Shown in pieces: positions 5,329 to 51,801 of a DNA stretch of 51,801 nucleotides. The stretch's first letter is position 1, and each line of letters begins with the position of its first letter. The stretch is taken from assembly GCF_000380185.1 (NCBI RefSeq), contig NZ_KB904769.1, forward strand, positions 1-51,801. The letters run 5' to 3'. This stretch comes from Thiofilum flexile DSM 14609. Its GTDB lineage: Bacteria; Pseudomonadota; Gammaproteobacteria; Thiotrichales; Thiotrichaceae. A program made the position numbers and the translations under genes. The notes under the pieces were generated by a model. The model was given only the letters and a program-made list of their open reading frames with translations. It had not been told where the DNA came from and did not search any database.

Positions 5329-5564
5329 GTACATTAGATCCTCTGCCAACGATTGAGTGTGGTTACTATCAACACTACAAAATGGGTTTATATGAAGTGT
5401 TAGGTGTGGCTCGTCACAGTGAAACCTATGAGCCATTGGTTTTGTACCGCCCCTTGTATAATGACTCTGGTCTATGGGTTCGTCCTTATGCAATGTTCTG
5501 TAGCACCGTAGAAATTGAAGGAAAAACTGTCCCGCGTTTCAGGCGGGTTGAGGATGGAGTGTAG
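5325..5564 (+). CDS. DUF1653 family protein
   Basis: A 79-residue protein with the DUF1653 pattern: GYYQHYKMGLYEVLGVARHSET, PLVLYRPLY and a C-terminal FRRVE. The family is small, widespread and of unknown biochemical role. The start overlaps the preceding stop as ATGA, so it is probably translationally coupled to the esterase. Confidence 0.85.
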   Translation: MSTLDPLPTIECGYYQHYKMGLYEVLGVARHSETYEPLVLYRPLYNDSGLWVRPYAMFCSTVEIEGKTVPRFRRVEDGV

Positions 5565-23717: not shown

Positions 23718-25940
23718 TTAGCTAGTTTGGGTAGGATTATTAGTATCCAATACAACGGGAGCTATGTTATCAGCGGGTGCGGATGGTGTCTCTGACACAG
23801 GTGCTACTTGCTCAAACGTTACTGGAGCAGGTGCAGCAGGCTCTGGCACGACAGGTGCAGGCGCAGAGGTTAACTCTAATGGCGCTGCTTCTGGCGCTGT
23901 ATTCACAACCGCTTGGACGGGAGTAGATTCCGCTGTAACAGGTTTTACTGCTGTTGCAGGTGCGGGTTTATCAGCTTTAGGCGCTGCTTTTTTGGCTGCT
24001 GGTTTGGTTTCAGCCGCTTTAGCAGGGGCTTTTTTAGCAGCCGGTTTCGCTTCTGCTTTAGTTTCGGCTTTAGGCGCTGCTTTTTTGGCAGGTTCCGCTT
24101 TAGCTGCAGCCTTTTTCGCTGGTTTAGCCTCAAGCTGAGTGTATTCCACTACGGGAGTCGGCTCATCCAAACGTACTTTGACATAAGTCCCCGGTGCATC
24201 TTCTATGGCTTTAAGCTTGTTAGCACCCGGTTGACGGGCTGGAACCATAGTAGAATCTAACGCTTTTACCCAACGATCCCACTCAGGCCACCAAGAGCCG
24301 GTTTTAACTGCATGCTGTTCTAGCCACGTTTTAGCATCAGGGGCAGAGTTATCACCCACACGATAGCCATATTTATTCGCATTCGGTGGGTTAATAATCC
24401 CCGCAATATGACCAGAACCTCCTAAAATAAAGGTAACATCGCCACTAAAGAGTTTGGCACCTGAATAGGTGGATACCCAAGGCGCAATATGATCTTCAAT
24501 CGCAGAAACAAAGCAAGCGGGTACATCGATGCTGGTGATATCTAAAGGTACACCATCAATACTTAATACCTTAGGTTTGCAGAGGTCATTCTGCAGATAG
24601 AGATTACGCAAATACCAAGAATGCATCTTAGCCGGCATACGGGTAGAGTCTGAGTTCCAATACAGGAGATCAAACGGACGTGGATCATTACCGAGGAGGT
24701 AGTTATTCACATAGAATGACCAAATCAGATCATTAGCCCGCATTAGGTTAAAGGTTCCCGCCATATTACTGCCTTCGAGGAAGCCTTTTTCGTTCATTTT
24801 AGACTCAAGCCCTTTAATTTGCTCTTCGTCAATGAACAAGCCTAATTCACCGGGGTTAGAGAAATCTAACATCGTGGTGAAGAAGGTTGAGCTAGCAATG
24901 CGATTGTCACCTTTGGACTTTAGGTAAGCTAAAGTAGAGGTTAGTAATGTACCACCAATGCAATAACCAATCGTATTAACTTTGGTTTCGCCCGTGTCGT
25001 ACTCAATCGCATCGAGTGCCTTGATCACGCCATTAGTGACGTACTCTTCAAACCCAACATTGGCATAAGTCTCGTCAGGGTTAACCCACGACATAACATA
25101 TACTGTATGGCCTTGCTCGACTAACCACTTTAATAAGGAGTTTTTCGGTTGTAAGTCCATAATATAGAACTTATTAATCCAAGGCGGCACGACCAATAGT
25201 GGACGTTTGAGCACTTTTTCAGTGGTCGGGGTATATTGGATGAGTTGGAACATCCGATTTTGGAATACGATTTTGCCCGGCGTGACCGCTACATTTTCGC
25301 CGAGTTTAAAGGCACTGGTATCGGTCATGCGAATACGTAGTTCGCCTTTACCTGCTTCGAGGTCTTCAAGCATGTTTTTCAGGCCGTGAACTAAGTTAGC
25401 GCCCTTAGTTTCTTTAATCTTCTCTAATACGGCTGGATTCGTAAGGGCAAAATTAGTAGGGGAGGCGGCATCTAACATACGCTCAGTAAAAAACTTAACC
25501 CGCTCAGCCGTATGCTCGTCTAAGCCTTCCACATCCGTAACTAGGTTACGCATCCATTGTGAAGTGAGTAGGTAAGATTGTTTAATCATGTCGAAGGCAG
25601 GTTTTTCCATCCAATCTTCATGACTAAAACGGCGATCTGTTTTTTCTGGTGTAATCACAGGCTCTGCTTTTTGCCCCATGAGGGATAACATAGCCTGTTG
25701 CGAGAGCATAAAGGACTTTTGCCAAAATTCTAAATTGGCTTGGATGATTTTTTGTGGATCAGCACTCAGCGCTGCCCACCAATCGGTGTAGACCTTTTTA
25801 AGATTTAGCGGATCTAGATTCATTCCTTCATACGATTTGGCTAAGCCCACCATCAACTCTTCTACCTGTTTAAAGTTACTTTGTAGCTCTCGGGCGGCGG
25901 CAAAACCTAAGGCACTTTCGCCTGGTTCAGTGTTTGACAT
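23718..25940 (-). CDS. phaC: Class I poly(3-hydroxyalkanoate) synthase PhaC with a Lys/Ala/Pro-rich tail
   Basis: Polymerises (R)-3-hydroxyacyl-CoA into PHA on the granule surface. I take the ATG at 25940, which has AAGGAG upstream, giving 740 residues; the frame is open seven codons further. The class I core has the PhaC_N region (residues about 60-230) and an alpha/beta hydrolase domain with catalytic Cys327 (GYCIGG lipase-like box), Asp483 and His511 (GSGHIAG). The last 137 residues (about 604-740) are extra: first KPAKKAAAKAEPAKKA-type repeats like histone H1 or the PhaF tail, then an acidic, Ala/Pro/Val-rich end. No phaA, phaB or phasin gene lies near. Confidence 0.95.
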   Translation of the reverse strand: MSNTEPGESALGFAAARELQSNFKQVEELMVGLAKSYEGMNLDPLNLKKVYTDWWAALSADPQKIIQANLEFWQKSFMLSQQAMLSLMGQKAEPVITPEKTDRRFSHEDWMEKPAFDMIKQSYLLTSQWMRNLVTDVEGLDEHTAERVKFFTERMLDAASPTNFALTNPAVLEKIKETKGANLVHGLKNMLEDLEAGKGELRIRMTDTSAFKLGENVAVTPGKIVFQNRMFQLIQYTPTTEKVLKRPLLVVPPWINKFYIMDLQPKNSLLKWLVEQGHTVYVMSWVNPDETYANVGFEEYVTNGVIKALDAIEYDTGETKVNTIGYCIGGTLLTSTLAYLKSKGDNRIASSTFFTTMLDFSNPGELGLFIDEEQIKGLESKMNEKGFLEGSNMAGTFNLMRANDLIWSFYVNNYLLGNDPRPFDLLYWNSDSTRMPAKMHSWYLRNLYLQNDLCKPKVLSIDGVPLDITSIDVPACFVSAIEDHIAPWVSTYSGAKLFSGDVTFILGGSGHIAGIINPPNANKYGYRVGDNSAPDAKTWLEQHAVKTGSWWPEWDRWVKALDSTMVPARQPGANKLKAIEDAPGTYVKVRLDEPTPVVEYTQLEAKPAKKAAAKAEPAKKAAPKAETKAEAKPAAKKAPAKAAETKPAAKKAAPKADKPAPATAVKPVTAESTPVQAVVNTAPEAAPLELTSAPAPVVPEPAAPAPVTFEQVAPVSETPSAPADNIAPVVLDTNNPTQTS

Positions 25941-35394: not shown

Positions 35395-36150
35395 TTAGCC
35401 TATGAAAGTTCCATATTTAACAATACGTTTTTGCCAATAGTTTTTGCTAAGATTATCCATCATCACTCGCCCTCCACCGGAGGCCGCATGGATAAAAGTA
35501 CCATTTTTCACATAAATACCAACGTGGCTGACACCGCTTCCGAAGGTATTAAAGAAAATTAAATCACCCGGACGGAGTTCGTTACGAGAAATAGTCCGGC
35601 TTGCACGGCTTTGCTCAGCCGCAGTACGTGGAATAGCGCGACCTATAGGTTTATGAGTGAGTTGTATCAAGGCACTGCAATCTAAACCTTCACGCACCGA
35701 GTTTCCGCCATATTTATATCGTACCCCTAGGACTTGATGAGCGCGTTCTAAAATAACGCGGCGAGCTGGGGTAAGTGCTTGCTGTTGAGGCGCTTGAATC
35801 ATCATGCGCTCGGTAACAGGAGGGGCATATTGAGCACTTTGCTGAAAGGGTAGGAGGGTATAGTCGGGTGGAGTTACTTCATCCGAGTATTCAGCTTGAT
35901 AACTGACTTGTTGGTATCGGGGTTGATATTGGGGCTGATACTGGGGTTGATATTGGGGCTGTTGAAAGTAGCGTTGGTTAGGGCGCTGTGCTCTATTATT
36001 GGGTTGTGGATTATAACGGACTTGGGCTGGGTAATGAGTGGGTTGATAATATTGTTGCTGATAGCCATAGGGATTAGCATGAGCACTAGGAACAGTAATA
36101 ATAGACAGCACAGTGCTTAGCCCTACAGAGATAATTGATAAGCGCAACAT
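35395..36150 (-). CDS. Exported NlpC/P60 peptidoglycan endopeptidase
   Basis: 251 residues: a signal peptide to about residue 25 (cleavage near AHA), a Gln/Tyr/Pro-rich linker with YQPQ tandem repeats (about 27-95), then an NlpC/P60 domain (about 130-250). The catalytic Cys is in LDCSALIQ, the first His in GVSHVGIYV, and the third polar residue (His) in FIHAASGGG. It should cleave stem-peptide bonds in the cell wall, acting in the periplasm. The linker repeats are coded by near-perfect 12-bp units and may vary in number. Confidence 0.9.
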   Translation of the reverse strand: MLRLSIISVGLSTVLSIITVPSAHANPYGYQQQYYQPTHYPAQVRYNPQPNNRAQRPNQRYFQQPQYQPQYQPQYQPRYQQVSYQAEYSDEVTPPDYTLLPFQQSAQYAPPVTERMMIQAPQQQALTPARRVILERAHQVLGVRYKYGGNSVREGLDCSALIQLTHKPIGRAIPRTAAEQSRASRTISRNELRPGDLIFFNTFGSGVSHVGIYVKNGTFIHAASGGGRVMMDNLSKNYWQKRIVKYGTFIG

Positions 36151-38123: not shown

Positions 38124-40019
38124 TTAGACCGTAGCACCACGGCTTTTTAGCAGTGTCTCTAACTCTGGCATAATGGCAGGATCATCAATAGTTGATGGAA
38201 CAATATATTCCTGACCATTGATCATTTGACGTAAGTTTTTACGCAAAATCTTACCTGAGCGCGTTTTCGGCAGGCGTTGCACAATGTAAGTATCTTTATA
38301 GCAAGCAATCGCACCAATCGACGCACGGATCATTTGGGCTAGTTCTTTGTTAAACTCAGCCTCATCGATTTGCACACCAGTTTTGAGTACCACTAAACCA
38401 ATTGGGATTTGACCTTTAAGATCGTCATCACGCGCAATGACCGCACATTCTGCGACCGCAGGATGGCTACCTACTACCTCTTCCATTTCGCCAGTAGATA
38501 AACGATGGCCTGCCACGTTCATAACGTCATCCACGCGCCCCATAACGAACACATAGCCGTCTTCATCGATATAGCCACCGTCGCCTGAGGCATAATAGCC
38601 TTCAAACATAGACAGATAGCTTTCTTTGAATTTTTCAACATTACCCCAAACGGTGGCTAAACAGCTAGGAGGCAGGGGGAGTTTCAGTGCGATATAGCCT
38701 TGTTGTCCGCGTGGTAATTCTTGTCCTGACTCATCCAGAATGCGTACATTAAAGCCGGGGGTCGGTACAGTAGAAGAGCCTAGCTTAATCGGCATCGGTT
38801 CAATCCCTTGCAGATTGGCGGTAATGCCCCAACCTGTTTCGGTTTGCCACCAGTGATCAATCACTGGCTTACCACTCATATCCATTAACCACTGTTGAGA
38901 AGGTGGATCGAGACGCTCACCCGCTGAGAAGATATTGGTAAGTTTGCTCAAATCATATTGCTTGAGGAAGGCACCTTCGGGATCTTCTTTTTTGATCGCG
39001 CGGAAGGCGGTAGGGGCTGTGAATAAAGCTTTGACACCATACTCAGAGCATACCCGCCAGAAGGCACCCGCATCAGGGGTCATAATGGGTTTACCTTCAT
39101 ACACAATTGTGGTGCAACCGTGTAAGAGTGGGGCGTATACGATATAGGAGTGACCTACCACCCAACCCACATCGGAAGCTGCCCAGAATACATCACCCGC
39201 TTTGAGGTTATAAATGGCATCCATACTGTAATTCAGTGCGACCGCATGACCACCATTTTCCCGTACCACACCTTTAGGTTTACCCGTTGTGCCGGAGGTA
39301 TAGAGGATATAGAGCGGGTCTGTACCTTTAACTGGAACGGGGGCAACAGGCTTAGCCTCAGCCATTAAGGTTTTCCAGTCATAATCCCGACCTTCGATGA
39401 GTGACGCGGTCGCTTCAGGACGTTGGAAAATAATACAGCTTTGTGGCTTATGACTAGAGAGATTAATCGCTTTGTCGAGTAGTGGTTTGTACTCAATCAC
39501 CCGCTTGATTTCCACACCACAAGAGGCGGAAATCATGACTTTAGGCTGGGCATCTTCAATACGTACTGCTAATTCGGGAGCCGCAAAGCCACCAAATACC
39601 ACCGAGTGAATTGCACCTAAGCGTGCCACCGCTAGCATAGAAATCAATGCCTCTGGAATCATGGGCATATAGACAATGACACGATCACCTTTAGTGACAC
39701 CAAGACCCGCGAGCATGCCGGCAGCTTTAGCGACTTCATCGCGTAATTGGTTATAGGTGTAGGTGGTTTTGGTATTGGTCACGGGTGAGTCATAGATCAT
39801 AGCGAGTTGATCGCCACGACCTTGCTCAATGTGATAATCTAAGGCCATATAGGAGGTGTTTAATTCACCATCCTCAAACCAATGATAGATACCATCTTTG
39901 TCTTGCGACAAAATCGTTTCAGGAAATTTAAACCAAGGCAAGGCTTGGGCTTTTTCACGCCAAAAGCCCTCAGGATCGTTCATAGATCGTTGATATTCAG
40001 CTTGGTAACTCATCTTCAT
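38124..40019 (-). CDS. prpE: Propionyl-CoA synthetase PrpE
   Basis: A 631-residue AMP-forming acyl-CoA ligase activating propionate for the methylcitrate cycle. Motifs: the P-loop-like YTSGTTGKPKGVV near 250, WWQTETGWG near 395, and the catalytic/regulatory Lys590 in RSGKILRKNL, the residue acetylated in this family. The N terminus (YQAEYQRSMNDPEGFWREKA) is typical. The last gene of the prp operon, 16 bp after prpF. Sequence alone favours PrpE over acetyl-CoA synthetase because of the operon. Confidence 0.93.
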   Translation of the reverse strand: MKMSYQAEYQRSMNDPEGFWREKAQALPWFKFPETILSQDKDGIYHWFEDGELNTSYMALDYHIEQGRGDQLAMIYDSPVTNTKTTYTYNQLRDEVAKAAGMLAGLGVTKGDRVIVYMPMIPEALISMLAVARLGAIHSVVFGGFAAPELAVRIEDAQPKVMISASCGVEIKRVIEYKPLLDKAINLSSHKPQSCIIFQRPEATASLIEGRDYDWKTLMAEAKPVAPVPVKGTDPLYILYTSGTTGKPKGVVRENGGHAVALNYSMDAIYNLKAGDVFWAASDVGWVVGHSYIVYAPLLHGCTTIVYEGKPIMTPDAGAFWRVCSEYGVKALFTAPTAFRAIKKEDPEGAFLKQYDLSKLTNIFSAGERLDPPSQQWLMDMSGKPVIDHWWQTETGWGITANLQGIEPMPIKLGSSTVPTPGFNVRILDESGQELPRGQQGYIALKLPLPPSCLATVWGNVEKFKESYLSMFEGYYASGDGGYIDEDGYVFVMGRVDDVMNVAGHRLSTGEMEEVVGSHPAVAECAVIARDDDLKGQIPIGLVVLKTGVQIDEAEFNKELAQMIRASIGAIACYKDTYIVQRLPKTRSGKILRKNLRQMINGQEYIVPSTIDDPAIMPELETLLKSRGATV

Positions 40020-40035
40020 CTCCTCCTGCTATCAA

Positions 40036-41223
40036 TTAAAAACTGTCACCCGGAACGCGCACAAAGCCTTCCATTAAGATACGAGCACTACGACTCATAA
40101 TCGCCTTGGTGACTTTCCATTCACCGTTTTCCAACGTCGCTTCAGCTCCTACTCGCAAAGTGCCAGAAGGATGACCAAAGCGTACTGCTTGACGTTCAAT
40201 ACCACCGGCCGCTTGATTCACTAAAGTGCCCGGAATCGCTGCCGCTGTACCAATGGCTACGGCTGCCGTACCCATCATGGCGTGGTGTAATTTGCCCATA
40301 GAGAGCGCACGCACTAATAAATCCACTTCAGAAGCCGATACTTCTTTACCACTAGCCGATTTATAAGTTTTCGCGGGGGCTATAAAGGCAATTTTAGGGG
40401 TATGTTGACGTGTGGCGGCCTCTTCTGGGGTTTTGATTAATCCCATGCGTAACGCGCCTGCAATACGGATTTGCTCAAAACGCGCTAAGGCCTGTGGGTC
40501 ACTATTGATAGCCTCACGTAACTCTGTACCGGTATAACCAATATCAGCGGCATTCACAAATACCGTGGGGATACCCGCTGTAATCATTGTGGCGGGGAAG
40601 GTGCCTATGCCGGGTACTTCTAGTTGATCGACTAGATTACCCGTAGGGAACAGGCTTCCACCTTCTTCACCTTCATCCGAGGGGTCGAGAAACTCTAATA
40701 CAATCTCAGCCGCTGGGAAGGTGACACCATCGAGTTCAAAATCACCGGTTTCTTGCACTTGTCTATTGCTAATCGGTACATGGGCAATAATGGTTTTACC
40801 AATATTGGCTTGCCAAATGCGTACAGTACACACGCCATTGTCTGGAATCCGTGCTGGATCGACATAGCCTGCATGAATAGCAAAGGCTCCTGCACCTGTG
40901 GATAAATTACCGCAGTTACCACTCCAATCGACAAAATCCTTATCAATCGAAATCTGTCCGTATAGATAATCTACATCATGATCGGGACGGGTACTTTTAG
41001 ATAAGATCACGCACTTACTGGTGCTAGAGGTCGCACCTCCCATACCGTCAGTATGAGCTGCATAAGGGTCTGGACTACCAATGACGCGCTGAAAGAGTTT
41101 GTCGCGTGCTTTGCCGGGCACTTGAGCAGCGACGGGTAGGTCTTCAAGACGGAAAAAGACGCCCTTACTAGTTCCGCCGCGCATATAAGTGGCGGGGATT
41201 TTTACTTGAGGAATAGTAGACAT
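40036..41223 (-). CDS. prpF: 2-methylaconitate cis-trans isomerase PrpF
   Basis: 395 residues of the PrpF family (N terminus IPATYMRGGTSKGVFFR, then GNLSTGAGAFAIHAG). It isomerises the 2-methylaconitate made by AcnD so that aconitase can hydrate it. It occurs only with acnD, as here. The 129 bp separating it from acnD contain a structured repeat. Confidence 0.95.
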   Translation of the reverse strand: MSTIPQVKIPATYMRGGTSKGVFFRLEDLPVAAQVPGKARDKLFQRVIGSPDPYAAHTDGMGGATSSTSKCVILSKSTRPDHDVDYLYGQISIDKDFVDWSGNCGNLSTGAGAFAIHAGYVDPARIPDNGVCTVRIWQANIGKTIIAHVPISNRQVQETGDFELDGVTFPAAEIVLEFLDPSDEGEEGGSLFPTGNLVDQLEVPGIGTFPATMITAGIPTVFVNAADIGYTGTELREAINSDPQALARFEQIRIAGALRMGLIKTPEEAATRQHTPKIAFIAPAKTYKSASGKEVSASEVDLLVRALSMGKLHHAMMGTAAVAIGTAAAIPGTLVNQAAGGIERQAVRFGHPSGTLRVGAEATLENGEWKVTKAIMSRSARILMEGFVRVPGDSF

Positions 41224-41252
41224 GGTTTTGTCTCATCAAATTGGGTAAATCC

Positions 41253-41340
41253 CTCACCCCAACGGTCTCTCCTATGTAGGATATGAGGGTTTCAGAGAGC
41301 TATTGCTCCTTTCCCAGTGCGGGAAAGGAGCAGGGGTGAG
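41253..41340. repeat. Cloverleaf-like palindromic element inside the prp operon
   Basis: An 88-bp element. The outer arms CTCACCCC (41253-41260) and GGGGTGAG (41333-41340) enclose a smaller arm (GGTCTCT near 41264 with AGAGAGC near 41294, containing the palindrome CCTATGTAGG) and an 11-bp hairpin (41305-41315 with 41321-41331). Such symmetry is typical of REP/MITE-like intergenic repeats. It lies in a transcribed spacer, so it may alter mRNA processing or expression of prpF and prpE relative to acnD. Confidence 0.75.
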
Positions 41341-41352
41341 AACACATCAAGC

Positions 41353-43962
41353 CTAAGCTGCGTTTGATTCCAAGAAGTCTTGGGCAAAGCGTTGTAAGAC
41401 ACCACCGGCTTTATACACACGGACTTCCGCTGCGGTATCTAGGCGGCATTTCACCGGAATACGCACGGTTTCACCATTTTTACGATGCATAACAACGGTT
41501 AAATCAGTCCGAGGTGCAATTTCGCCTTCGACATCAAAGGTTTCTGTACCATCAATGTTATAGGTTTTACGGGTTTCACCGGCTTTAAATTCCAGTGGTA
41601 ATACACCCATACCAACTAAGTTAGTACGATGAATGCGCTCAAAACCTTCCGCCACAATCGCCTCAACTCCCGCTAAACGGACGCCTTTAGCAGCCCAGTC
41701 ACGGCTTGAGCCTTGACCGTAGTCAGCTCCGGCAATAATGATCAGCGGTTGTTTGCGATTCATATAGGTTTCAATCGCTTCCCACATGCGCATGACTTTG
41801 CCATCTGGCTCAACACGTGCTAGGGAACCTTTCTTGACTTGACCATCCACTACTGCCATTTCATTGACTAATTGGGGATTAGCAAAGGTAGCGCGTTGTG
41901 CGGTTAAGTGATCACCACGGTGGGTGGCGTAAGAGTTAAAGTCCTCTTCGGGTAAGCCCATTTTCGCCAAATACTCACCCGCAGCACTATTGAGTAGAAT
42001 AGCATTGGAGGGTGATAAGTGATCGGTGGTGATATTGTCAGGCAATACCGCGAGGGGGCGCATCCCTTTTAAAGTACGCTCACCGGCTAAGGCACCTTCC
42101 CAGTAAGGGGGGCGACGGATATAGGTAGACTGAGGACGCCAATCGTATAAAGGACTCGCCGCTTCTTCTGCTTTGCCTAAATCGAACATCGGAATGTAAA
42201 CCTGTTTGAATTGCTCAGGTCTAACAAACTTAGCTACGATGGCATCAATTTCTTCATCAGAAGGCCAAATGTCTTTTAAGGTAATAGGCTTACCGTTTTT
42301 ATCTTTGCCGAGTGCGTCTTGTTCAATGTCTAAACGCACTGTACCTGCAATCGCATAGGCGACGACTAGAGGGGGCGAAGCTAAAAACGCTTGTTTAGCA
42401 TAAGGATGAATACGACCATCAAAGTTACGATTACCGGATAGCACGGCTGTCGTATACAGATCACGTTCAATGATTTCTTGTTGGATTTTAGGATCGAGTG
42501 CGCCTGACATACCATTACAAGTCGTACAAGCAAAGGCCACAATCCCAAAGCCTAACTTCTCTAAATCACCTAATAAACTAGCTTCTTTGAGGTATAGCTC
42601 AGCGACTTTAGAGCCGGGGGCAAACGAGGTTTTTACCCAAGGTTTGCGTACTAAACCTAATTCATTAGCCTTTTTCGCCAATAAGCCTGCTGCAACCACA
42701 TTGCGTGGGTTAGAGGTATTGGTGCAAGAGGTAATCGCCGCAATAATCACCGCGCCATCAGGTAATAAACCTTCAGCCTCTTCAGCTTTAGCCGCGTGTA
42801 GTTTCGCCTCATCTGCAATACCACGCTCTTGTAAAGCGGAGGTCGGTAGACGTTTATGCGGATTAGAAGGACCTGCCATATTACGCACTACGGTAGAGAG
42901 ATCAAACTCTAGTACCCGTGGATATTGTGCTGTTTTGAGTGCATCAGCCCAGAGTCCGGTGGTTTTCGCATAGTTTTCTACGAGCTTCACTTGCTCAGGT
43001 TCACGGCCGGTGAGTTTCAGATAGTCAATGGTTTGACCATCAATATAGAACATCGCAGCCGTAGCGCCATACTCAGGGCACATATTAGAAATAGTCGCGC
43101 GATCACCAATCGAGAGGCTATCTGCACCATCACCAAAGAACTCTACATAGGCACCGACTACACGCTCTTTACGTAAGAACTCAGTGAGTGCTAAGACGAT
43201 ATCGGTAGCTGTAATACCCGGTTGACGTTTGCCGGTGAGTTTTACCCCTACGATATCGGGTAGGCGCATCATGGAAGGATGACCGAGCATCACAGTTTCG
43301 GCTTCTAAACCACCGACACCAATGGCGATAACACCTAAAGCATCCACATGTGGCGTATGCGAGTCAGTACCGACACAAGTATCTGGGAAGGCGATACCCT
43401 CACGCACCTGAATCACCGGAGACATTTTCTCCAAATTGATTTGGTGCATAATGCCATTCCCCGCAGGGATTACATCCACATTTTTGAAGGCGGTTTTGGT
43501 CCACTCAATAAAGTGAAAACGGTCTTCATTACGACGATCTTCTACTTCACGATTTTTGCGGAAAGCGTCTGGGTCAAAGCCACCAAACTCTACTGCTAAG
43601 GAGTGGTCAACAATCAATTGCGTAGGTACGACCGGATTAACCAGCGCAGGGTTGCCCCCTTGATCGGCAATCGCATCCCGTAAGCCTGCAAGATCGACTA
43701 AGGCGGTTTGACCTAAAATATCATGGCAGACTACACGAGCGGGATACCACGGGAAATCTAGATCTTGTTTGCCTTCAATTAATTGCTTGAGTGAATCAGT
43801 TAAAGCGGCTGGCTCACAACGGCGTACTAATTGTTCGGCTAGGACACGCGAGGTATAAGGTAGCTTGTCATAGCTGCCCGGCTGGATCGCTTCTACCGCA
43901 GCACGGGTATCGAAATAATCCAGTTGAGTACCGGGAAGATTTTTACGGTATTCAGTATTCAT
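41353..43962 (-). CDS. acnD: 2-methylcitrate dehydratase AcnD (Fe-S)
   Basis: 869 residues of the aconitase superfamily, AcnD subfamily. The [4Fe-4S] Cys ligands are in the AITSCTNTSNP and ACTTCNG segments. It dehydrates 2-methylcitrate in the variant cycle that uses AcnD plus PrpF in place of PrpD. Presence of prpF immediately downstream and prpC upstream settles the subfamily. It is 18 bp from prpC. Confidence 0.95.
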   Translation of the reverse strand: MNTEYRKNLPGTQLDYFDTRAAVEAIQPGSYDKLPYTSRVLAEQLVRRCEPAALTDSLKQLIEGKQDLDFPWYPARVVCHDILGQTALVDLAGLRDAIADQGGNPALVNPVVPTQLIVDHSLAVEFGGFDPDAFRKNREVEDRRNEDRFHFIEWTKTAFKNVDVIPAGNGIMHQINLEKMSPVIQVREGIAFPDTCVGTDSHTPHVDALGVIAIGVGGLEAETVMLGHPSMMRLPDIVGVKLTGKRQPGITATDIVLALTEFLRKERVVGAYVEFFGDGADSLSIGDRATISNMCPEYGATAAMFYIDGQTIDYLKLTGREPEQVKLVENYAKTTGLWADALKTAQYPRVLEFDLSTVVRNMAGPSNPHKRLPTSALQERGIADEAKLHAAKAEEAEGLLPDGAVIIAAITSCTNTSNPRNVVAAGLLAKKANELGLVRKPWVKTSFAPGSKVAELYLKEASLLGDLEKLGFGIVAFACTTCNGMSGALDPKIQQEIIERDLYTTAVLSGNRNFDGRIHPYAKQAFLASPPLVVAYAIAGTVRLDIEQDALGKDKNGKPITLKDIWPSDEEIDAIVAKFVRPEQFKQVYIPMFDLGKAEEAASPLYDWRPQSTYIRRPPYWEGALAGERTLKGMRPLAVLPDNITTDHLSPSNAILLNSAAGEYLAKMGLPEEDFNSYATHRGDHLTAQRATFANPQLVNEMAVVDGQVKKGSLARVEPDGKVMRMWEAIETYMNRKQPLIIIAGADYGQGSSRDWAAKGVRLAGVEAIVAEGFERIHRTNLVGMGVLPLEFKAGETRKTYNIDGTETFDVEGEIAPRTDLTVVMHRKNGETVRIPVKCRLDTAAEVRVYKAGGVLQRFAQDFLESNAA

Positions 43963-43980
43963 GGTTCAGCATATCCCCTA

Positions 43981-45129
43981 TTAAGCGCGTTGTTCTAGTG
44001 GAGTCCAAGTCAAGCCCTCAGGCCCTGTGTAATGAGCACTAGGACGAATAATTTTCCCGTCTTCACGTTGCTCAATCACATGCGCCCCCCAGCCACTAGT
44101 ACGGGCAATTACAAATAGAGGCGTGAACATATCGGTAGGTACACCCATTTGGTTATAGGACACTGCTGAATACCAATCAAGATTCGGGAACATGCTTTTG
44201 ATTTCTTGCATGACCGTTTCTAAACGGGCAGCAACATTGAACATGGTCAAATCACTGTTTTCATCAGACAGTTGTTTAGCAACACGCTTAATCACTTCAT
44301 TGCGCGGGTCGGCAATGGTATAGACTGGATGACCGAAACCAATAATCACTTCTTTACGTGCTACACGCTCACGGATATCGGCTTCAGCCTGATCGGGAGT
44401 GAAATAACGGCTTTGAATACGGAAAGCAACTTCATTCGCGCCCCCGTGTTTGGAGCCGCGTAACGCACCAATAGCGCCGGTAATACAAGAGTAAACGTCT
44501 GAATTAGTACCCGCAATCACCCGTGAGGTAAAGGTAGAGGCATTAAATTCATGCTCAGCATACAAAATCAACGAGGTATGCATGGCGCGTACCCACGATT
44601 CTTTAGGCGTTTTACCATGTAATAAATGCAGGAAGTGCCCACCTACTGAGTCATCATCGGTCTCAACATCAATACGTTTACCATTGACCGCAAAATGATA
44701 CCAATACAGCAACATAGAACCGAAACTGGCAACCAAACGATCTAATATCAAACGGGTTTCAGCGACCGGATGATCTTCTTTTTCGGGTAAACATGTACCC
44801 AATACGGAGCAGCCGGTACGCATGACATCCATCGGATGAGCAGAAGGTGGTAAGGCTTCCATCGCTTGTTTTACCGCTAGGGGTAAGCCGCGCATGGATT
44901 TTAATTTGGCTTTATAGGCTTTTAATTGCGCAGCATTTGGTAATACACCATGAATCAGCAAATGGGCAATTTCTTCAAATTCGGCTTTTTCAGCAAAGTC
45001 GAGAATATCATAGCCCCGATAATGCAGATCATTACCCGTCCGTCCGACTGTACAAATAGCTGTATTACCTGCGGCAATACCCGATAAGGCAACTGATTTT
45101 TTAGTTTTAGGTAGCACTTGTTCAAGCAT
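43981..45129 (-). CDS. prpC: 2-methylcitrate synthase PrpC
   Basis: 382 residues of the citrate synthase family, short PrpC type. Catalytic His residues are in GSKHGGANE and GFGHPVYTI, with the Asp in the C-terminal DWYSA region. It condenses propionyl-CoA with oxaloacetate. Members often retain some citrate synthase activity. It lies 13 bp after prpB. Confidence 0.95.
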
Positions 45130-45142
45130 TTAACTTTACTCC

Positions 45143-46033
45143 TTATTCCGCGCCCTGTTTAGCGAATAATGCATCGAGTTTTTGCTCGTAAGCGTGATAG
45201 CCGATGGTGTCGTATAGTTCCATACGGGTTTGCATGGTATCGACCACATTCTTTTGTGAGCCATCTTTTAAGATATGGGTATAAACATTTTCAGCGGCTT
45301 TAGCCATAGCACGGAAGGCAGAGAGCGGATAGAGCACCAGCTTTACACCCACACTGGAAAGTTCTTCCGTGGTATACAGTGGGGTAGCGCCAAACTCGGT
45401 AATATTAGCTAGTACCGGAACATTAACCGCTTTAGTAAATTGAGCATATTGCTCTAATTTATTCATCGCCTCTGGGAAAATCATATCCGCACCGGCTTCC
45501 ACACAAGCCATCGCGCGGTCAATGGCAGATTGCATACCTTCCACTGCTAAAGCGTCAGTACGAGCCATAATCACAAAGCTAGGATCGGTGCGTGCATCTA
45601 CGGCAGCCTTAACACGGTCAACCATTTCTTCAAGGCTGACGATGGCTTTATTCGGGCGATGACCGCAGCGTTTTTGCATCACTTGGTCTTCAATGTGAAA
45701 ACCCGCTGCCCCTGCTTGAGCGACTTCACGGGTAGCACGCGCAATATTAAAGGCTCCACCCCAACCCGTATCGATATCGACTAATAGGGGTAGGGTAGTC
45801 ACAGCAGTGATACGTTTAATATCTTCCACCACATCATGCAGAGTAGTAATGCCCAGATCGGGAATCCCCAAGGAGGACGCTGCTACACCGCCACCGGATA
45901 GATATAAGGCTTTATGTCCTACCTTCTCAGCAATAATTGCACTATTAGCAGTGACTGCACCCACCACTTGTAAGGGGTTATTTTCAACGACCGCTTGGCG
46001 TAATTTTTGACCCGGAGTAAGTTTCTGTGTCAT
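45143..46033 (-). CDS. prpB: 2-methylisocitrate lyase PrpB
   Basis: 296 residues of the isocitrate lyase/PEP mutase superfamily. The catalytic signature is [10 protein letters not shown] near residue 120, and metal-binding Asp residues lie in [10 protein letters not shown]. It splits 2-methylisocitrate to pyruvate and succinate, the last step of the cycle. Its start overlaps the gntR stop by 4 bp, so the regulator and enzyme are translationally coupled. Confidence 0.95.
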
Positions 46034-46713
46034 GGCTTTTGTTCTTCCTCATCCATCAGTTCACTAATACTTTTCCATGCACCACTAATATGGCGGCGCA
46101 TAAGGAGTTCTGCGAGTTCACCATCGCGGTTAGCGATAGCCTCTGCAATCTGGCGATGCTGCTGTAGTGCGGGTCTGGTACGCTGTGCCATACGGCTAGT
46201 GCGATAGCGGCACATGCGTAACAGGTGGTAAAGCTCATGGGCGAGTAGATCAATCAACATTTGATTGCGACTGCCTAGAGCTATGTGGTAATGAAAGTCG
46301 AAGTCGCTTTCATTTTGTATATATTGTGTACTATCACTGGCGGTAATTTGCTGTTCATGACGATCTAACAATTCATATAACAAGCGAATTTCGCCATCAT
46401 TCATATTCTCAGCAGCCAACCGGCACGCTATGCCTTCTAATGCTTCACGCACGCGATACATTTCGCCCATTTTGGCTTTATCCAGTTTAACCACCCGCGC
46501 TCCAGCATGGGGGATGCGTTGAACTAGACGTATTCCTTCTAAGTGACGTAGTGCCTCACGTAAAGGGCCGCGACTAATGCCATAACGAGTGGCTAAGTCG
46601 GTTTCACAGAGTTTTTGGCCTTGCCTGAGCTCTCCGGTGATAATGGCCTGTGTTAAGCGCAACGACGCACGGTCGGATAGTGTTCTTTCCTCATCTAACG
46701 GTTTGGTGCTCAT
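46030..46713 (-). CDS. GntR-family (FadR/VanR subgroup) regulator of the prp operon
   Basis: 227 residues: an N-terminal winged helix (about 10-75, [25 protein letters not shown]) and an all-helical FadR/FCD-type effector domain (about 80-220) with His residues at the usual metal/ligand positions ([17 protein letters not shown]). It is the first gene of the operon and probably autoregulates it in response to a propionate-derived metabolite. Two TTGTTRACAA palindromes in the upstream region are its candidate operators. It is unrelated to the sigma54-type PrpR of enterics. Confidence 0.9.
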
Positions 46714-46969: not shown

Positions 46970-48322
46970 CTAAAGCGTTTCGTATTTTTTTATGAGTCGA
47001 TACACATTACGCTCACTAATATTCATTGCGCGCGCGACTTTACCGCGATGGCCTTGATATTGATCCAGCAGTAGATTGACGTATTGTTTTTCAACTACCT
47101 CTAGGGTAGGTATTTCATCAAAAGAGAGATAAAAGCCTTTACGGCTCGGCGCATTATGGGCGTTGGGTTCTGGGCTGAGGGTGAAGTGCTCTGGCTGAAT
47201 CTGCTCAGCATTGCCGGATAAAATAATGGCACGTTCCACCATATTTTTAAGCTCTCGAATATTGCCAGGCCATGAGTATTCCATGAGTTTATCGAGAGCA
47301 GCTTTGCTTAGATGCTTATTCACCCGCCGTGAAAAGTCATGGTTTTGAATAAAATGCATAACAAGGGTGAGGATATCGTTTTTGCGCTCGCGTAGCGGAG
47401 GGACATAAATAATAAACGCATTGAGGCGATAAAACAGATCGGGGCGAAAAGTTCCCTCTTGCGACATACTGAGTAAATCCCGATTAGTCGCAGCCACGAT
47501 ACGCACATTAGCACTTAAATCGCGGGTTCCACCCAAACGCCGAAAGCGCCCCGTTTCTAACACGCGCAATAGTTTGGCTTGAATCGCGGGGGTAATTTCA
47601 CCAATCTCATCAAGAAATAGGGTGCCACCTTCGGCACTTTCAATCAGTCCCTTTTTTTGCCGATCTGCTCCCGTAAATGCGCCTTTTTCATGCCCAAATA
47701 ACTCAGACTCAAACAGGTTTTCCTGCATAGTGCAACAATCTAGGGCTACATAGCCTTGTTTAGCAACTTGGCTACGTTCGTGTACTTCTCGTGCCACTAA
47801 TTCTTTGCCCACTCCGCTCTCGCCTTGAATCAGCACTGTCATCATACTAGGGGCGACTGCGCTAATCATTTTCTCGACCTCTTTCAAGGCCGGGCTATTG
47901 CCAATCATAAAGGAGTGCGGCTTAGTCACGTGCTCTTTTAGATAGAGAAACTCTTTACGCATATTATGCGTGTCTAGTGTTTTACGAATGACTAGCTCTA
48001 GCTCTTCAATATTAATGGGTTTTAATAGATACTCAGCTGCTCCGGCTCGCATGGCATTCACCGCATCTTTTACATTGCCATAGGCGGTTAGAATAATGAC
48101 CGGATAATCGGGTATGAGGAGAGGCAATAAATCCGTCCCACGGGCATCGGGTAGTTGGCAGTCGAGTAAAATTAAATGCGGATCATGTTGTTGTAGGTAA
48201 ACTTGTGCCTCTGCCCACGAGTGAACTCCCATTGCGCCATAACCCATTTTATTCAGTTGCCCCACAATCAACCGATTTAAGGTGGTGTCATCGTCAATGA
48301 CGAGTAATAGCGGTAACATCAA
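46970..48322 (-). CDS. NtrC-type sigma54-dependent response regulator
   Basis: 450 residues: a receiver domain with phospho-acceptor Asp54 (ILLDCQLPD), a sigma54-activating AAA+ domain with Walker A GESGVGKE (about 169-176), GAFTGAD (about 220, sigma54 contact) and Walker [12 protein letters not shown], and a Fis-type HTH at the C terminus ([21 protein letters not shown]). It follows the kinase gene with no gap (stop 48323, start 48322). The likely target is the divergent promoter at 50467, flanked by the TGCCA-N3-TGGCA palindromes. The presence of the GAFTGA loop shows that it is a true sigma54 activator. Confidence 0.95.
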
Positions 48323-50320
48323 TCAGTGCTCCTGTACAGCTTGATCAGCATCTGGAAACGTCAGACGAAAGATAGTGTGACCTGCTTGGTGTGCTAGAAG
48401 TTGAATAGTGCCATGGTGTTGGGTCATTAGGCTGCGTACAATGGTCAAGCCCAAGCCAGAACCCGTTTGCCCCACCCGTCGACTGAAAAAGGGATCAAAA
48501 ATATGCGGTACAATCTCGGCACTGACCCCGACCCCGGTGTCTTGTACTTCAATTTGTACCATGTCATTAATGATTTGGGTGCGTAGTGTGAGTACGCCTC
48601 CTTGTGGCATGGCATGAAAGGCGTTTTGTACTAAATTTAAAATAATCATCCGTAGATCATTATCTGCTGCCAAAATCCGTGCCCGTTGGGGGCAGAGATC
48701 AAGCACTTGCTCAATATGCTGTTGCTCGCGCTCAAAACGTAATAACGATAGTGTTTCAGTAATGACGCTATTCACCTCCACTAGCTCAATGTGATTACTC
48801 GATAAAGTACCAAGCTTCATTAGGCGATGCGTCACACTTAAGCATTGCTCCACCTGCTCATCGACCAGACGCAGATAGTCTTTTAATTCCAGTAACTCTA
48901 ATTCAGTGGCAGTTTGAGCAATAGTTGGGGTTTGATTGAGTAGGGTGTCGCTGGCTTGTAAGGCAATACGCACCGAGGCCAGTGGATTATGAATTTCATG
49001 CGCCACTCCCGCTGCTAATTCGCCTAGTGCCGAAAGCTTTTGCTCATGAGAGTAATGTACCGCTTGATCTAAATCGCGCACCGCTTCAACAACCCATTTA
49101 GCCTCAAGATTATGAGCAGGGGGCGATAGGCGCGCGGCATAGACTTCGGTATGGAGCAGGGTATGGTCGGGGCGCTGAATGGTTTCAATAAATTTTAGAC
49201 TAGCCTGTTCATCATTTAATGTTTCTAGCGGGCAGGTTCGTAAGGAAGAGGGGCAAGGTGTATCACGTTGATAGGTAATAGCATAGCAACACTGTTGGCG
49301 TAGTACTTTAGCATCACAATAACCTGTCTGTTGAGCATAAGCCTGATTCGCAATAATGATTTTGTAATCTTGATCAATCACTCGTACCCCATCCGGTACA
49401 CCATCAATAAGGCCTTGTAAGAACTGCTCGCGGTCTTGTAATTGATTATGGCTGGCTTGTAAATGCTCTGCCATTTGATTAAAGGTTTTACCTAGATGTG
49501 ATAGTTCATTATGACCCTGCACCGCAACACGTGCTTGTAGATTACCCTGTGAGAGTGAGGCGCTGGCTTGATGTAATTGTTGAATAGGTGCCAAGACATA
49601 GCGGCGCATAAACCACCAAGTAGCTCCAGCACTTAAGGCTAGGGTCGTGAAGCCTGCAACCATGAGAAATAAGAGGGTTTGCCAATTGTGTTGCTGCAGC
49701 GCACTGATCTCATGATCTACCACTAAAATGCCATTCACAGGGTGCTGGTCGATAGTGCCATGACAACCTAAACAAGCCGGCTTATTACGTACTGGATGAA
49801 ACGTGCGTAGGCGTGGATCATGATCGGGTGTGGTAATAAAGTGGCTAATCGGCTCTAAAGGTAATTGCTGAGCGCTGCACTGTGGGCAAAAGTGTTGAAT
49901 GATTTGGGCTTGTTGTTGACCAATTAGGCGCATGTCTGAGGCAAAGCGTACTTCTCCTTGGGGGTTTAGAACCATGACCCCCTTAATACCTTTTTGAGTA
50001 CCTAACTCGGAAATCATTTCCTGTAAACCCACTAAGTCACGACGCAGCATCGCTCGCTCAAGAGAAGACTTAAGCAATAAGCTAACCGAAACCGAGGCAC
50101 GGGCGCGTTCCTCAGTGAGTTGAGCATAATAAAAGTAAGAAAATAAAATCAGAAAAATGCTCGATACCCCGATCAAAATACTGAGCAAAAACACAATGAA
50201 TTGTCGGCTCAACGCAGAGGAGGGTATGGGTTGGGAGGTAGCAGATAATTGAATCATAGGACGTGTTATTCCACGTATAAAGCCACACATAATCTCTGAG
50301 TATACTGCTAAATATGACAT
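48323..50320 (-). CDS. Membrane sensor histidine kinase with a periplasmic CxxCH motif
   Basis: 665 residues from the outermost ATG; the start is uncertain and ATG 50257 (644 residues) is equally possible. Order: TM1 (about 41-65), a periplasmic domain with CPQC (145-148) and a c-type-heme-like CLGCH (183-187) preceded by FHPVRNKPA, TM2 (214-239), HAMP, a PAS domain whose end is Cys-rich (QQCCYAITYQRDTPCPS, then RTCPL), a HisKA domain (AHEIHNPL) and HATPase (NLVQNAFHAM, GSGLGLTIVR). The periplasmic motif resembles NxPxCxxCH sensors that bind heme. It pairs with the sigma54 regulator. The signal is unknown; redox, NO or a metal are candidates. Confidence 0.93.
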   Translation of the reverse strand: MSYLAVYSEIMCGFIRGITRPMIQLSATSQPIPSSALSRQFIVFLLSILIGVSSIFLILFSYFYYAQLTEERARASVSVSLLLKSSLERAMLRRDLVGLQEMISELGTQKGIKGVMVLNPQGEVRFASDMRLIGQQQAQIIQHFCPQCSAQQLPLEPISHFITTPDHDPRLRTFHPVRNKPACLGCHGTIDQHPVNGILVVDHEISALQQHNWQTLLFLMVAGFTTLALSAGATWWFMRRYVLAPIQQLHQASASLSQGNLQARVAVQGHNELSHLGKTFNQMAEHLQASHNQLQDREQFLQGLIDGVPDGVRVIDQDYKIIIANQAYAQQTGYCDAKVLRQQCCYAITYQRDTPCPSSLRTCPLETLNDEQASLKFIETIQRPDHTLLHTEVYAARLSPPAHNLEAKWVVEAVRDLDQAVHYSHEQKLSALGELAAGVAHEIHNPLASVRIALQASDTLLNQTPTIAQTATELELLELKDYLRLVDEQVEQCLSVTHRLMKLGTLSSNHIELVEVNSVITETLSLLRFEREQQHIEQVLDLCPQRARILAADNDLRMIILNLVQNAFHAMPQGGVLTLRTQIINDMVQIEVQDTGVGVSAEIVPHIFDPFFSRRVGQTGSGLGLTIVRSLMTQHHGTIQLLAHQAGHTIFRLTFPDADQAVQEH

Positions 50321-50343: not shown

Positions 50344-50378
50344 TGCCATTTTGGCAGTATTGATATGCCAAAATGGCA
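50344..50378. promoter_or_regulatory. Paired UAS palindromes in the divergent control region
   Basis: TGCCA-TTT-TGGCA at 50344-50356 and TGCCA-AAA-TGGCA at 50366-50378 are perfect palindromes and mutual reverse complements, with centres 22 bp (two turns) apart. They lie about 105 bp upstream of the sigma54 promoter and 24 bp from the outermost kinase start. This is the classical geometry of an NtrC-class enhancer, and would also allow autoregulation of the kinase operon. Confidence 0.8.
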
Positions 50379-50466: not shown

Positions 50467-50482
50467 TGGCATGGTTAGTGCA
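50467..50482 (+). promoter_or_regulatory. Sigma54 promoter of the secreted-protein genes
   Basis: TGGCATGGTTAGTGCA has GG at 50468-50469 and GC at 50480-50481 with 10 bp between. The transcript would start near 50493, which excludes the in-frame ATG at 50491 and supports ATG 50530 for the following gene. Confidence 0.8.
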
Positions 50483-50529: not shown

Positions 50530-50829
50530 ATGCCGATGCGTTCTTTCATGTGGGTAGTGCTGTTAGTGGGCATAACATCAGGCTCGGTAGCACAGGCTGA
50601 GGGCTATGATTATATTGCAGGTACTCAACCCTCTCATCGCCCTGATCAAGCACCTGTACTCACTGAGGTACAGAAAAATGCTGATTGGTATCAGCACGCT
50701 CTTTATGGCGTCGAGTCTCCTTATCCTCATTCGCTGAAATTTCTGGAAGACCAAGGTAATTGGTTTACCCCTTTTAATCATCCCGGCATGACGCATCCCT
50801 ACGATTTACGTGGTTGGCATTCTAAGTAA
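50530..50829 (+). CDS. Small secreted protein of unknown function
   Basis: 99 residues from ATG 50530, chosen over the upstream in-frame ATG at 50491 because the predicted sigma54 start lies near 50493 and AAGAGG precedes it. A signal peptide (FMWVVLLVGITSGSVAQA) is cleaved before EGYDYIAG. The mature 77 residues are rich in aromatic residues, His and Pro (SHRPDQAPVL, ADWYQHALYGVESPYPHS, NWFTPFNHPGMTHPYDL) with no Cys. The six His could bind metal, but I recognise no family. It is first in the sigma54-driven unit, 52 bp before the Gly-Met-rich gene, with no terminator between. Confidence 0.75.
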   Translation: MPMRSFMWVVLLVGITSGSVAQAEGYDYIAGTQPSHRPDQAPVLTEVQKNADWYQHALYGVESPYPHSLKFLEDQGNWFTPFNHPGMTHPYDLRGWHSK

Positions 50830-50881: not shown

Positions 50882-51801
50882 ATGAAGACTTTATTAAAAA
50901 AAGTATTACCTTTGGTCGTAAGTACTATGTTATTTGCTCCTGTCACCTTTGCTGATCAACAAGGTATGTCAGGCATGAGTGGTATGCAGGGTATGTCAGG
51001 CATGGGTGGCATGTCCGGTATGAGTGGTATGCAAGGCATGTCAGGCATGGGTGGTATGTCCGGTATGAGTGGCATGCAAGGTATGTCAGGCATGGGTGGT
51101 CAAGCTGGCATGGTATGCATTAGATGGGCACCTGCTCAAGCAGGCATGAGCGGCATGTCCGGAATGGGTGGCATGAGCGGTATGTCCGGAATGGGTGGCA
51201 TGAGCGGTATGTCAGGCATGGGCGGCATGAGCGGTATGTCCGGAATGGGTGGCATGAGTGGTATGTCAGGCATGGGTGGCATGTCAGGCATGGGTGGCAT
51301 GGGTGGCATGGGTGGCATGAGTGGTATGTCAGGCATGGGTGGCATGTCAGGCATGGGTGGCATGGGTGGCATGAGTGGTATGTCAGGCATGGGCGGTATG
51401 TCCGGAATGGGTGGTATGTCCGGAATGGGTGGCATGAGCGGTATGTCAGGCATGGGCGGTATGTCTGGAATGTCAGGCATGGGCGGTATGTCTGGAATGT
51501 CAGGCATGGGCGGTATGTCAGGCATGAGCGGCATGCAAGGTATGGATGGCATGAGCGGCATGTCAGGCATGGGCGGAATGTCCGGAATGGGTGGCATGAG
51601 CGGTATGTCAGGCATGGGCGGAATGTCCGGAATGGGTGGCATGAGCGGTATGTCCGGAATGGGTGGCATGAGCGGTATGTCAGGCATGGGCGGTATGTCA
51701 GGCATGGGTGGCATGTCAGGCATGGGCGGTATGTCCGGAATGGGTGGCATGAGCGGCATGTCAGGCATGGGCGGTATGTCCGGAATGGGTGGCATGAGCG
51801 G
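50882..51801 (+). CDS. Secreted Gly-Met-X repeat protein, runs off the window
   Basis: At least 306 residues, open to the last base. A strong ribosome binding site (AGGAG) precedes the ATG. A signal peptide ends near TFA (residue 24), then DQQGMSGMSG begins. The mature protein is nearly all G-M-X tripeptides (X = Ser, Gly, rarely Gln or Asp), often in 9-residue units such as GMSGMSGMG, so about one residue in three is Met and one in three or more is Gly. Ser and Gly codons vary freely (TCA, TCC, TCT, AGC, AGT), so the protein pattern is kept, not just the DNA. One interruption at 51101-51145 (QAGMVCIRWAPAQAG) holds the only Cys and Trp of the repeat. Function unknown; Met-rich repeats can bind Cu(I) or quench oxidants. 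Confidence 0.85.
   Translation, partial: MKTLLKKVLPLVVSTMLFAPVTFADQQGMSGMSGMQGMSGMGGMSGMSGMQGMSGMGGMSGMSGMQGMSGMGGQAGMVCIRWAPAQAGMSGMSGMGGMSGMSGMGGMSGMSGMGGMSGMSGMGGMSGMSGMGGMSGMGGMGGMGGMSGMSGMGGMSGMGGMGGMSGMSGMGGMSGMGGMSGMGGMSGMSGMGGMSGMSGMGGMSGMSGMGGMSGMSGMQGMDGMSGMSGMGGMSGMGGMSGMSGMGGMSGMGGMSGMSGMGGMSGMSGMGGMSGMGGMSGMGGMSGMGGMSGMSGMGGMSGMGGMS

Follow-up and report, generated by a model that had tools for sequence, protein, structure and literature searches.

A Gly-Met-X repeat gene and its neighbours

The window, a stretch of 51,801 nt from Thiofilum flexile DSM 14609, represents the first 51,801 nt of a 217-kb contig and ends inside a gene that encodes a Gly-Met-X (GMX) repeat protein, hereafter the GM protein. 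The features at this end of the window, and the continuation of the GM gene in the downstream sequence (L009), are as follows.

46970-48322, − strand: sigma-54-dependent response regulator
48323-50320, − strand: histidine kinase (HAMP, PAS, HisKA and HATPase domains), divergent from p97
50344-50378, no strand assigned: two 13-bp palindromes, TGCCATTTTGGCA and TGCCAAAATGGCA, separated by 22 bp and located some 100 bp 5′ of the sigma-54 site
50467-50482, + strand: sigma-54 type -24/-12 site, TGGCATGGTTAGTGCA, upstream of p97
50536-50829, + strand: p97, a small secreted-looking protein of a conserved family, directly 5′ of the GM gene
50882-51801, + strand: GM-repeat gene, with signal peptide, GMX repeats and one CxxW-type insert, truncated at the end of the window
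L009:4003-4302: 3′ part of the GM gene after a 200-N gap, in which the repeat resumes and runs to a stop

The GM gene starts with an ATG at 50882 and its frame is open to the window end (50882-51799, + strand). The N-terminus of its product, MKTLLKKVLPLVVSTMLFAPVTFA, is by eye a signal peptide, which agrees with the preliminary description of the protein as exported. The mature part contained in the window is 282 residues long and includes 121 Gly (42.9%), 89 Met (31.6%, close to the one-third first noted) and 52 Ser, together with two Asp, a single Pro and neither His nor Glu. It comprises 89 GMX units, in which X is Ser in 52, Gly in 31, Gln in four, and Val and Asp in one each. The protein had been described as more than 270 residues of near-uninterrupted G-M-X; instead, there are two unbroken runs of 15 and 73 units, 264 residues in all, separated by one insert that contains MVCIRWAPAQ. 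The synonymous codons do vary as described, with three codons used for Gly (GGC 58, GGT 49, GGA 14) and five for Ser, and every unit of the 73-unit run retains its Gly and Met despite this variation. Nucleotide shuffles of the gene (n = 1000) produced at most five GMX units, and amino acid shuffles of the protein at most 43 units with a longest run of five. Tandem periods of 9, 18, 27 and 45 bp fit the gene; the 27-bp higher-order unit reported earlier is present (24 copies, score 411), but the 45-bp unit gives the best score (466).

The window part of the GM protein matches the Pfam Collagen model at 46.8 bits, against a cut-off of 27.2, while the 99-residue C-terminal part scores 21.0 bits, under the cut-off, and collagen-like adhesin models also remain below theirs. 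Because the protein has almost no proline, the Collagen match reflects its composition, and with one Pro in 282 mature residues we rejected a collagen-like adhesin or triple-helix protein. AlphaFold gave no confident fold (pLDDT 44.1).

The sequence runs on past the window, as had been anticipated: after 200 N directly following the window end (L009:3803-4002) the repeat resumes and contains another insert, WACLEWAPAQ. The frame closes after GMQGQNWVPPKN, and the part beyond the gap shows no C-terminal anchor. The 200 N may be a placeholder from the assembly or stand for a withheld stretch; taken literally they would shift the frame, and their number is not a reliable guide to the length of this GM protein. 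Contigs also end beside p97 or the GM repeat in four relatives (G017, G029, G041 and G045), and N runs fall within the GM gene in three others (G014, G091 and G195). Such breaks at the same place would be expected of a repeat that resists assembly. Unbroken GM genes are found in a single-contig genome (G033; L180, 309 residues) and on plasmid pEJ01 (244 residues).

These intact copies bear on whether the repeat is simply a product of tandem expansion that encodes no maintained protein. The DNA is indeed a simple tandem repeat and the gap conceals part of the window copy. However, 73 units are unbroken with varied Gly and Ser codons, the genes in the finished L180 and pEJ01 sequences are intact, and the same kind of protein is encoded in loci whose GC content ranges from 0.38 to 0.71 (10 loci). 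We consider an expansion artefact hardly credible. The preliminary description would have been overturned by a frame that ended at once after the window or was interrupted in related strains; since the finished relatives carry unbroken genes and the frame does not end at the window end, the GM gene is a real, maintained and widespread protein gene.

Elsewhere, the window contains a second molybdopterin oxidoreductase at 7393-8640 (open frame of 898 residues), a − strand segment at 38124-46713 that we take to resemble a propionate or 2-methylcitrate set (acyl-CoA ligase, AcnD-, PrpF-, PrpC- and PrpB-like proteins and a GntR-type regulator), and two short tandem repeats at 24063-24124 and 35910-35958 (30-bp and 12-bp units).

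A DmsAB-like reductase cassette

The GM gene is part of a cassette with the order p97, GM protein, five-heme cytochrome c, DmsA-like protein, DmsB-like protein, TorD-like chaperone and ferredoxin, to which the histidine kinase and the sigma-54 regulator also belong. The genes 3′ of the GM gene, from the cytochrome to the ferredoxin-like gene, are on the same strand. The p97 protein has a signal-like N-terminus, and 22 columns are invariant in an alignment of 14 sequences. None of these 14 family members matches Pfam, the window p97 has no NCBIfam match, comparison with solved structures (PDB) returned nothing under E 0.7, and the predicted structure is of low confidence (pLDDT 60.6). The cytochrome contains five CxxCH motifs in 13 of 16 relatives and six in the other three.

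The kinase carries one CxxCH heme-c motif ahead of its HAMP domain, and the motif is also found in the kinases of six relatives, those kinases being the ones recognised by script. A sigma-54 type site was found upstream of p97 at 25 of 35 loci and on the opposite strand at none (0/35), with a shuffling expectation of 0.025. Because this site precedes p97 in 25 of the 35 loci, control of the cassette operon by the neighbouring regulator is a good inference from the sequence. The two palindromes, seen in this form at 3 of 12 loci examined, are possible candidate activator sites.

The DmsA-like protein has 853 residues and a Tat-type start. Its best model is the DMSO/selenate reductase model TIGR02166, at 607 bits, which does not reach the curated cut-off of 777.7; the DmsB-like protein similarly scores 196 bits against TIGR02951 (cut-off 214.1). 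The PhsA model gives 206 bits with the DmsA-like protein, the closest solved structure is the DMSO reductase 1eu1 (8e-79) and identity to Escherichia coli DmsA is 35%. We aligned the subfamily in 19 rows, which represent 15 different genes as L181-L184 repeat L189, L190, L191 and the window gene. All 19 rows read C-x3-C-x3-H in place of the C-x3-C-x3-C of E. coli DmsA, YnfE and YnfF. The third FS0 cysteine is thus replaced by His in all 15 genes, and a search pattern with an obligatory His also hit four of them (own genome, G105, G195 and G251); the first, second and fourth cysteines are retained. A Ser that we take to be the Mo ligand is found at the aligned position in 19/19 rows, and the active-site Tyr is kept. 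The surroundings of this Ser read SVPSY (SIPSY in two), compared to GDYS in E. coli DmsA, and the SYGW motif of DorA is changed to SYAG or YAG. By these criteria the protein is an S/N-oxide-reductase-like enzyme that forms its own subfamily, and it could act on a substrate other than methionine sulfoxide, because the active-site surroundings differ from those of both DorA and E. coli DmsA.

The cassette shares with E. coli DmsABC and YnfEFGH the DmsA- and DmsB-like subunits, a TorD-family chaperone, the Tat-type signal and the aligned Ser, as well as, with DmsABC, three of the four FS0 cysteines; it differs in the His at the third. No DmsC was found among the scanned L009 ORFs or the annotated pEJ01 genes; instead there is the five-heme cytochrome, and the operon adds the Met-rich protein and p97. 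The nearest solved relatives of the enzyme are of the type of Rhodobacter DorA, whose SYGW motif it does not retain. DorA lacks the FeS N-terminus and has no DmsB partner.

Linkage of the GM protein and the cassette across distant taxa

GM proteins of this kind occur in Alpha-, Beta- and Gammaproteobacteria. We compared 25 complete entries from 24 different genes (L012 and L180 are one gene, and the genome in question also carries L178). Met accounts for 26-33% of residues in all 25, counted from the first GM unit onwards. The constant feature of the family is Gly-Met at every third residue; X varies, most often among S, G, N, Q, D, R, A and Y, and protein length differs widely between species. 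Inserts recur (WVCTQW, VCTKWAPVQ, WVPxQ and WVWVPDQ) and 10 of the 25 entries have a W-x-P-P tail; the L070 and L169 proteins have no insert. One relative (G091) carries a GMYGMRGMG version (L174:5422-6600) beside the same cassette genes; its p97 homologue (L174:11911-12390) is positioned after TorD and bears a Met/Tyr-rich C-terminal extension.

GM-rich linkers or tails are present on other periplasmic-looking proteins in G033 (L178:3480-4124 and 4549-5412) and G017 (L175:2691-3128 and L176:2865-4130). By eye these include a lipoprotein cytochrome of the c type, encoded next to a second GM protein, as well as a small c-type cytochrome with GM units and a TPR-like protein. A dehydrogenase-like protein (by eye) of Paracoccus sanguinis has a GMS-repeat stretch near its end (L114:2579-4816), and Clostridium uliginosum encodes a 170-residue protein with 32% Met and GMQGMN-type repeats but no clear signal peptide (L126:2117-2629). 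In Thiodiazotropha endolucinida the GM gene is convergent with a lipoprotein MsrA-like gene (by eye; L156:268-1422 and 1712-2326), whose product belongs to another type of methionine sulfoxide (MetO) reductase.

To relate the GM protein to its neighbours we used several searches. Among 95 relatives, p97 was found in 17 and a (GMX)6 pattern in 19, with no match for the backward-pattern control. Two of the 19 were left out, as the match in G008 is a GML run antisense to another gene and that in G019 is a simple repeat, GGGATGCTT. In all 17 remaining carriers p97 and/or a cytochrome or DmsA gene adjoins the repeat in the loci examined. Two genomes have p97 without a GM match: G045, where the contig ends just past p97, and G058, an 85%-complete genome with p97, DmsA and cytochrome and no GM protein either in the 4.8-kb contig or by pattern, which on this coverage is a genuine exception.

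A DNA-only (GMX)8 scan with one genome per species gave at least 117 loci, 28 of which encode secreted GM proteins as judged by eye. Among the matches listed, p97, the cytochrome or DmsA is present in the examined flank of 20 of these 28 and of none of the 89 other GMX loci, which by script include 46 GroEL and 8 Ffh genes with a mixed remainder. Two of the 28 (L095 and L171) have only the kinase and regulator beside the GM gene, and six have no cassette gene in the examined flank, again among the matches listed. At five of those six the contig breaks off within or close to the locus on one side (3′ for L094, L150 and L153, 5′ for L165; L152 has 0.8 kb upstream); at the sixth, L156, both flanks are visible. 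Kinase or regulator matches listed for the 89 other loci are L072, L096 and L151 (E 6e-78, strong), as expected for such common families.

We also performed the reverse test, querying 397 genomes of the phylum with the DmsA signature C-A-H-N-C-G-x-R-H-M alone. Four matched, the own genome and three of other classes (G105, G195 and G251), and each of these three encodes a GM protein together with p97, the cytochrome and a DmsB-like protein. The whole cassette, kinase and regulator included, lies on one strand of the conjugative plasmid pEJ01 of Rhodobacter xanthinilyticus. With the low-complexity filter on, a GM/p97 DNA query matched one of 72,556 plasmid records, pEJ01. Among the matches listed for 1003 plasmid records, pEJ01 alone has a DmsA homologue of at least 60% identity; the other 39 plasmid DmsA homologues listed are about 33-35% identical. 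The sampled genomes are interrelated, and the genome counts are therefore not counts of independent events. Our data demonstrate a linkage of the GM protein and the cassette across distant taxa; the cassette occurs in three classes of Proteobacteria and is also carried by a conjugative plasmid.

Carriers include Thiothrix, Thiodiazotropha, a Lamellibrachia symbiont, Ruthturnera and Chromatiaceae, and further Hyphomicrobium, Rhodobacterales, Marimonas and a betaproteobacterium. Many belong to sulfur-oxidising groups, as Thiothrix, Thiodiazotropha and the tubeworm symbiont are sulfur oxidisers, which would fit a repetitive periplasmic protein that coats sulfur globules or a sulfur surface and keeps elemental sulfur near a sulfur or polysulfide reductase. 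Opposed to this is the presence of carriers among Rhodobacterales and Hyphomicrobium and on a marine Rhodobacter plasmid, hosts that are not known to form globules. A report that predicts six sgp genes in T. caldifontis characterises sulfur-globule proteins as hydrophobic, secreted and of repetitive sequence (PMC10386293); the regularly spaced Pro that it describes is absent from the GM protein. The enzyme, moreover, fits the DMSO-reductase model far better than PhsA (607 compared to 206 bits). We therefore regard a sulfur coat as quite improbable.

The recurrent inserts (WVCTQW, CTKWAPVQ, WVPxQ) and W-x-P-P tails would be expected of a scaffold or docking polymer, in which the GM chain, its CxxW-type inserts and its tail organise the reductase, cytochrome and p97 outside the cell or at its outer face and Met provides flexible hydrophobic contacts rather than a redox substrate. 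GM stretches likewise look like linkers or tails in other proteins of periplasmic appearance, cytochromes among them, and the Gly/Met tails of GroEL are reported, in the excerpt available, to form polyproline-II helices and to bind clients (PMC12571646). However, about 30% Met is kept in each lineage compared, which would be costly for a spacer, and we judge the scaffold to be unlikely.

The GM protein as a possible methionine reservoir

We favour a reading in which the GM protein is a periplasmic Met sink, oxidised and then re-reduced as the dedicated partner of the new DmsAB-like reductase, although we would call it an even bet. That its Met residues are meant for oxidation and re-reduction is suggested by the S-oxide-type Mo enzyme in the cassette. 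In this scheme oxidants such as peroxide or hypohalous acids would convert the roughly one hundred exposed Met of the chain to MetO. The DmsA-like subunit would return this MetO to Met with respiratory-chain electrons that reach it through the five-heme cytochrome and the FeS proteins. The heme-motif sensor kinase and the sigma-54 regulator would turn the cassette on. The chain may adopt an extended, polyproline-II-like shape with three residues per turn, which would place Met on one exposed face; the Gly-Met repeat chemistry that it shares with GroEL C-terminal tails suggests this shape, although those tails are short and belong to a cytosolic chaperonin and the GM protein is secreted-looking. 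We infer each of these steps, from the Met as substrate to the oxidant, electron route, regulator and shape.

Protein-bound MetO is a known substrate of related enzymes. In the accessible parts of these papers, DorA reduces protein-bound MetO with a preference for the peptide QWGAGM(O)QAEED (PMC7402097), Campylobacter concisus BisA repairs MetO on casein (PMC10653797), and E. coli DmsABC reduces MetO, with dmsA expression raised by HOCl or H2O2 (PMC12096835). The DorA authors suggested in 2020 that organisms may use undiscovered enzyme systems that regulate protein oxidation states (PMC7402097).

The one pair of genes for a Met-rich protein and a Mo-dependent MetO reductase that our literature search returned is MrpX with MsrPQ; MrpX and YedYZ cycle Met against hypochlorite in perchlorate-reducing bacteria (PMC4623255). 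As far as the available text describes it, that system likewise pairs an exported Met-rich protein (here with a signal assigned by eye) with a molybdenum reductase. It differs in that the partner of MrpX is of the MsrP family and here is DmsAB-type with a five-heme cytochrome, that its control is by SigF/NrsF and here looks two-component and sigma-54 dependent, and that a long, nearly pure GMX repeat and an extra p97 are found only here. By analogy, the cassette may work like MrpX with MsrPQ, using another Mo-enzyme family.

Several observations count against a dedicated role. The own genome encodes MsrA (L198) and MsrB (L200) with export-like N-termini; G058 has the enzyme and p97 with no GM protein visible; and GM proteins also occur outside the cassette, as do L177 and L178, additional GM proteins away from the cassettes of their genomes, with GM stretches found on cytochromes. 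At E <= 0.001 the own genome contains no recognisable MsrP. We also considered that the cassette replaces MsrP and rejected this, because MsrP is equally common in carriers (12/19) and non-carriers (48/76; hand tally).

We scanned the flanks in 37 of 66 ORFs from 16 loci, antisense-looking ORFs having been dropped by eye. Among the 25 of 56 families listed, none was an oxidant-defence family and only integrase/transposase-type families occurred in more than one member.

The same scan bears on a copper role, which was implied by the Cu(I) titration proposed in the preliminary description and in which the GM protein would buffer copper or silver by binding periplasmic or external Cu(I), perhaps shielding the FeS/Mo enzyme. 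M-x-x-M-x-x-M spacing is a Mets-type copper motif, and Met takes part in copper binding in CopM and similar proteins. The three-residue thioether spacing of the GM repeat fits this motif, short GM runs are seen by eye in copper-oxidase- or efflux-like proteins (L096, L139 and L172), and periplasmic CopM of Synechocystis binds Cu(I), as stated in the available part of the source (PMC4335983). The GM protein resembles CopM-type proteins, by description only, in being periplasmic or secreted, but differs in its operon context, which for those proteins is one of copper. The 25 of 56 families listed for the 37 flanking ORFs include none connected with copper, the mature GM part has no His or Glu and only two Asp, and the linked genes encode an S-oxide-reductase-like enzyme and a sensor with a heme motif. 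With no copper family among those listed and conserved neighbours that point to S-oxide reduction, we consider copper buffering distinctly unlikely.

Returning to the Met sink, a bolder version, which we hold to be rather unlikely, is that of a mobile respiratory module in which the secreted poly-(Gly-Met-X) is a solid-phase substrate that would trap diffusible oxidants as MetO, this MetO then being respired by the new, His-ligated DmsAB-like enzyme via the cytochrome. Our literature search, judged by titles and the starts of abstracts, returned no description of the cassette, and the strings GMSGMG, MSGMSGM and GMGGMSG gave only an unrelated-looking match in the text available. The cassette provides a candidate natural, dedicated protein substrate for a DMSO-reductase-type enzyme, and it gives a genetic setting to a DmsA subfamily that is apparently undescribed and to the p97 family, which has no Pfam entry. 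In the bolder version of the Met sink, the polymer would double as an antioxidant and a rechargeable store of electron acceptor for bacteria living at the margin of oxygen.
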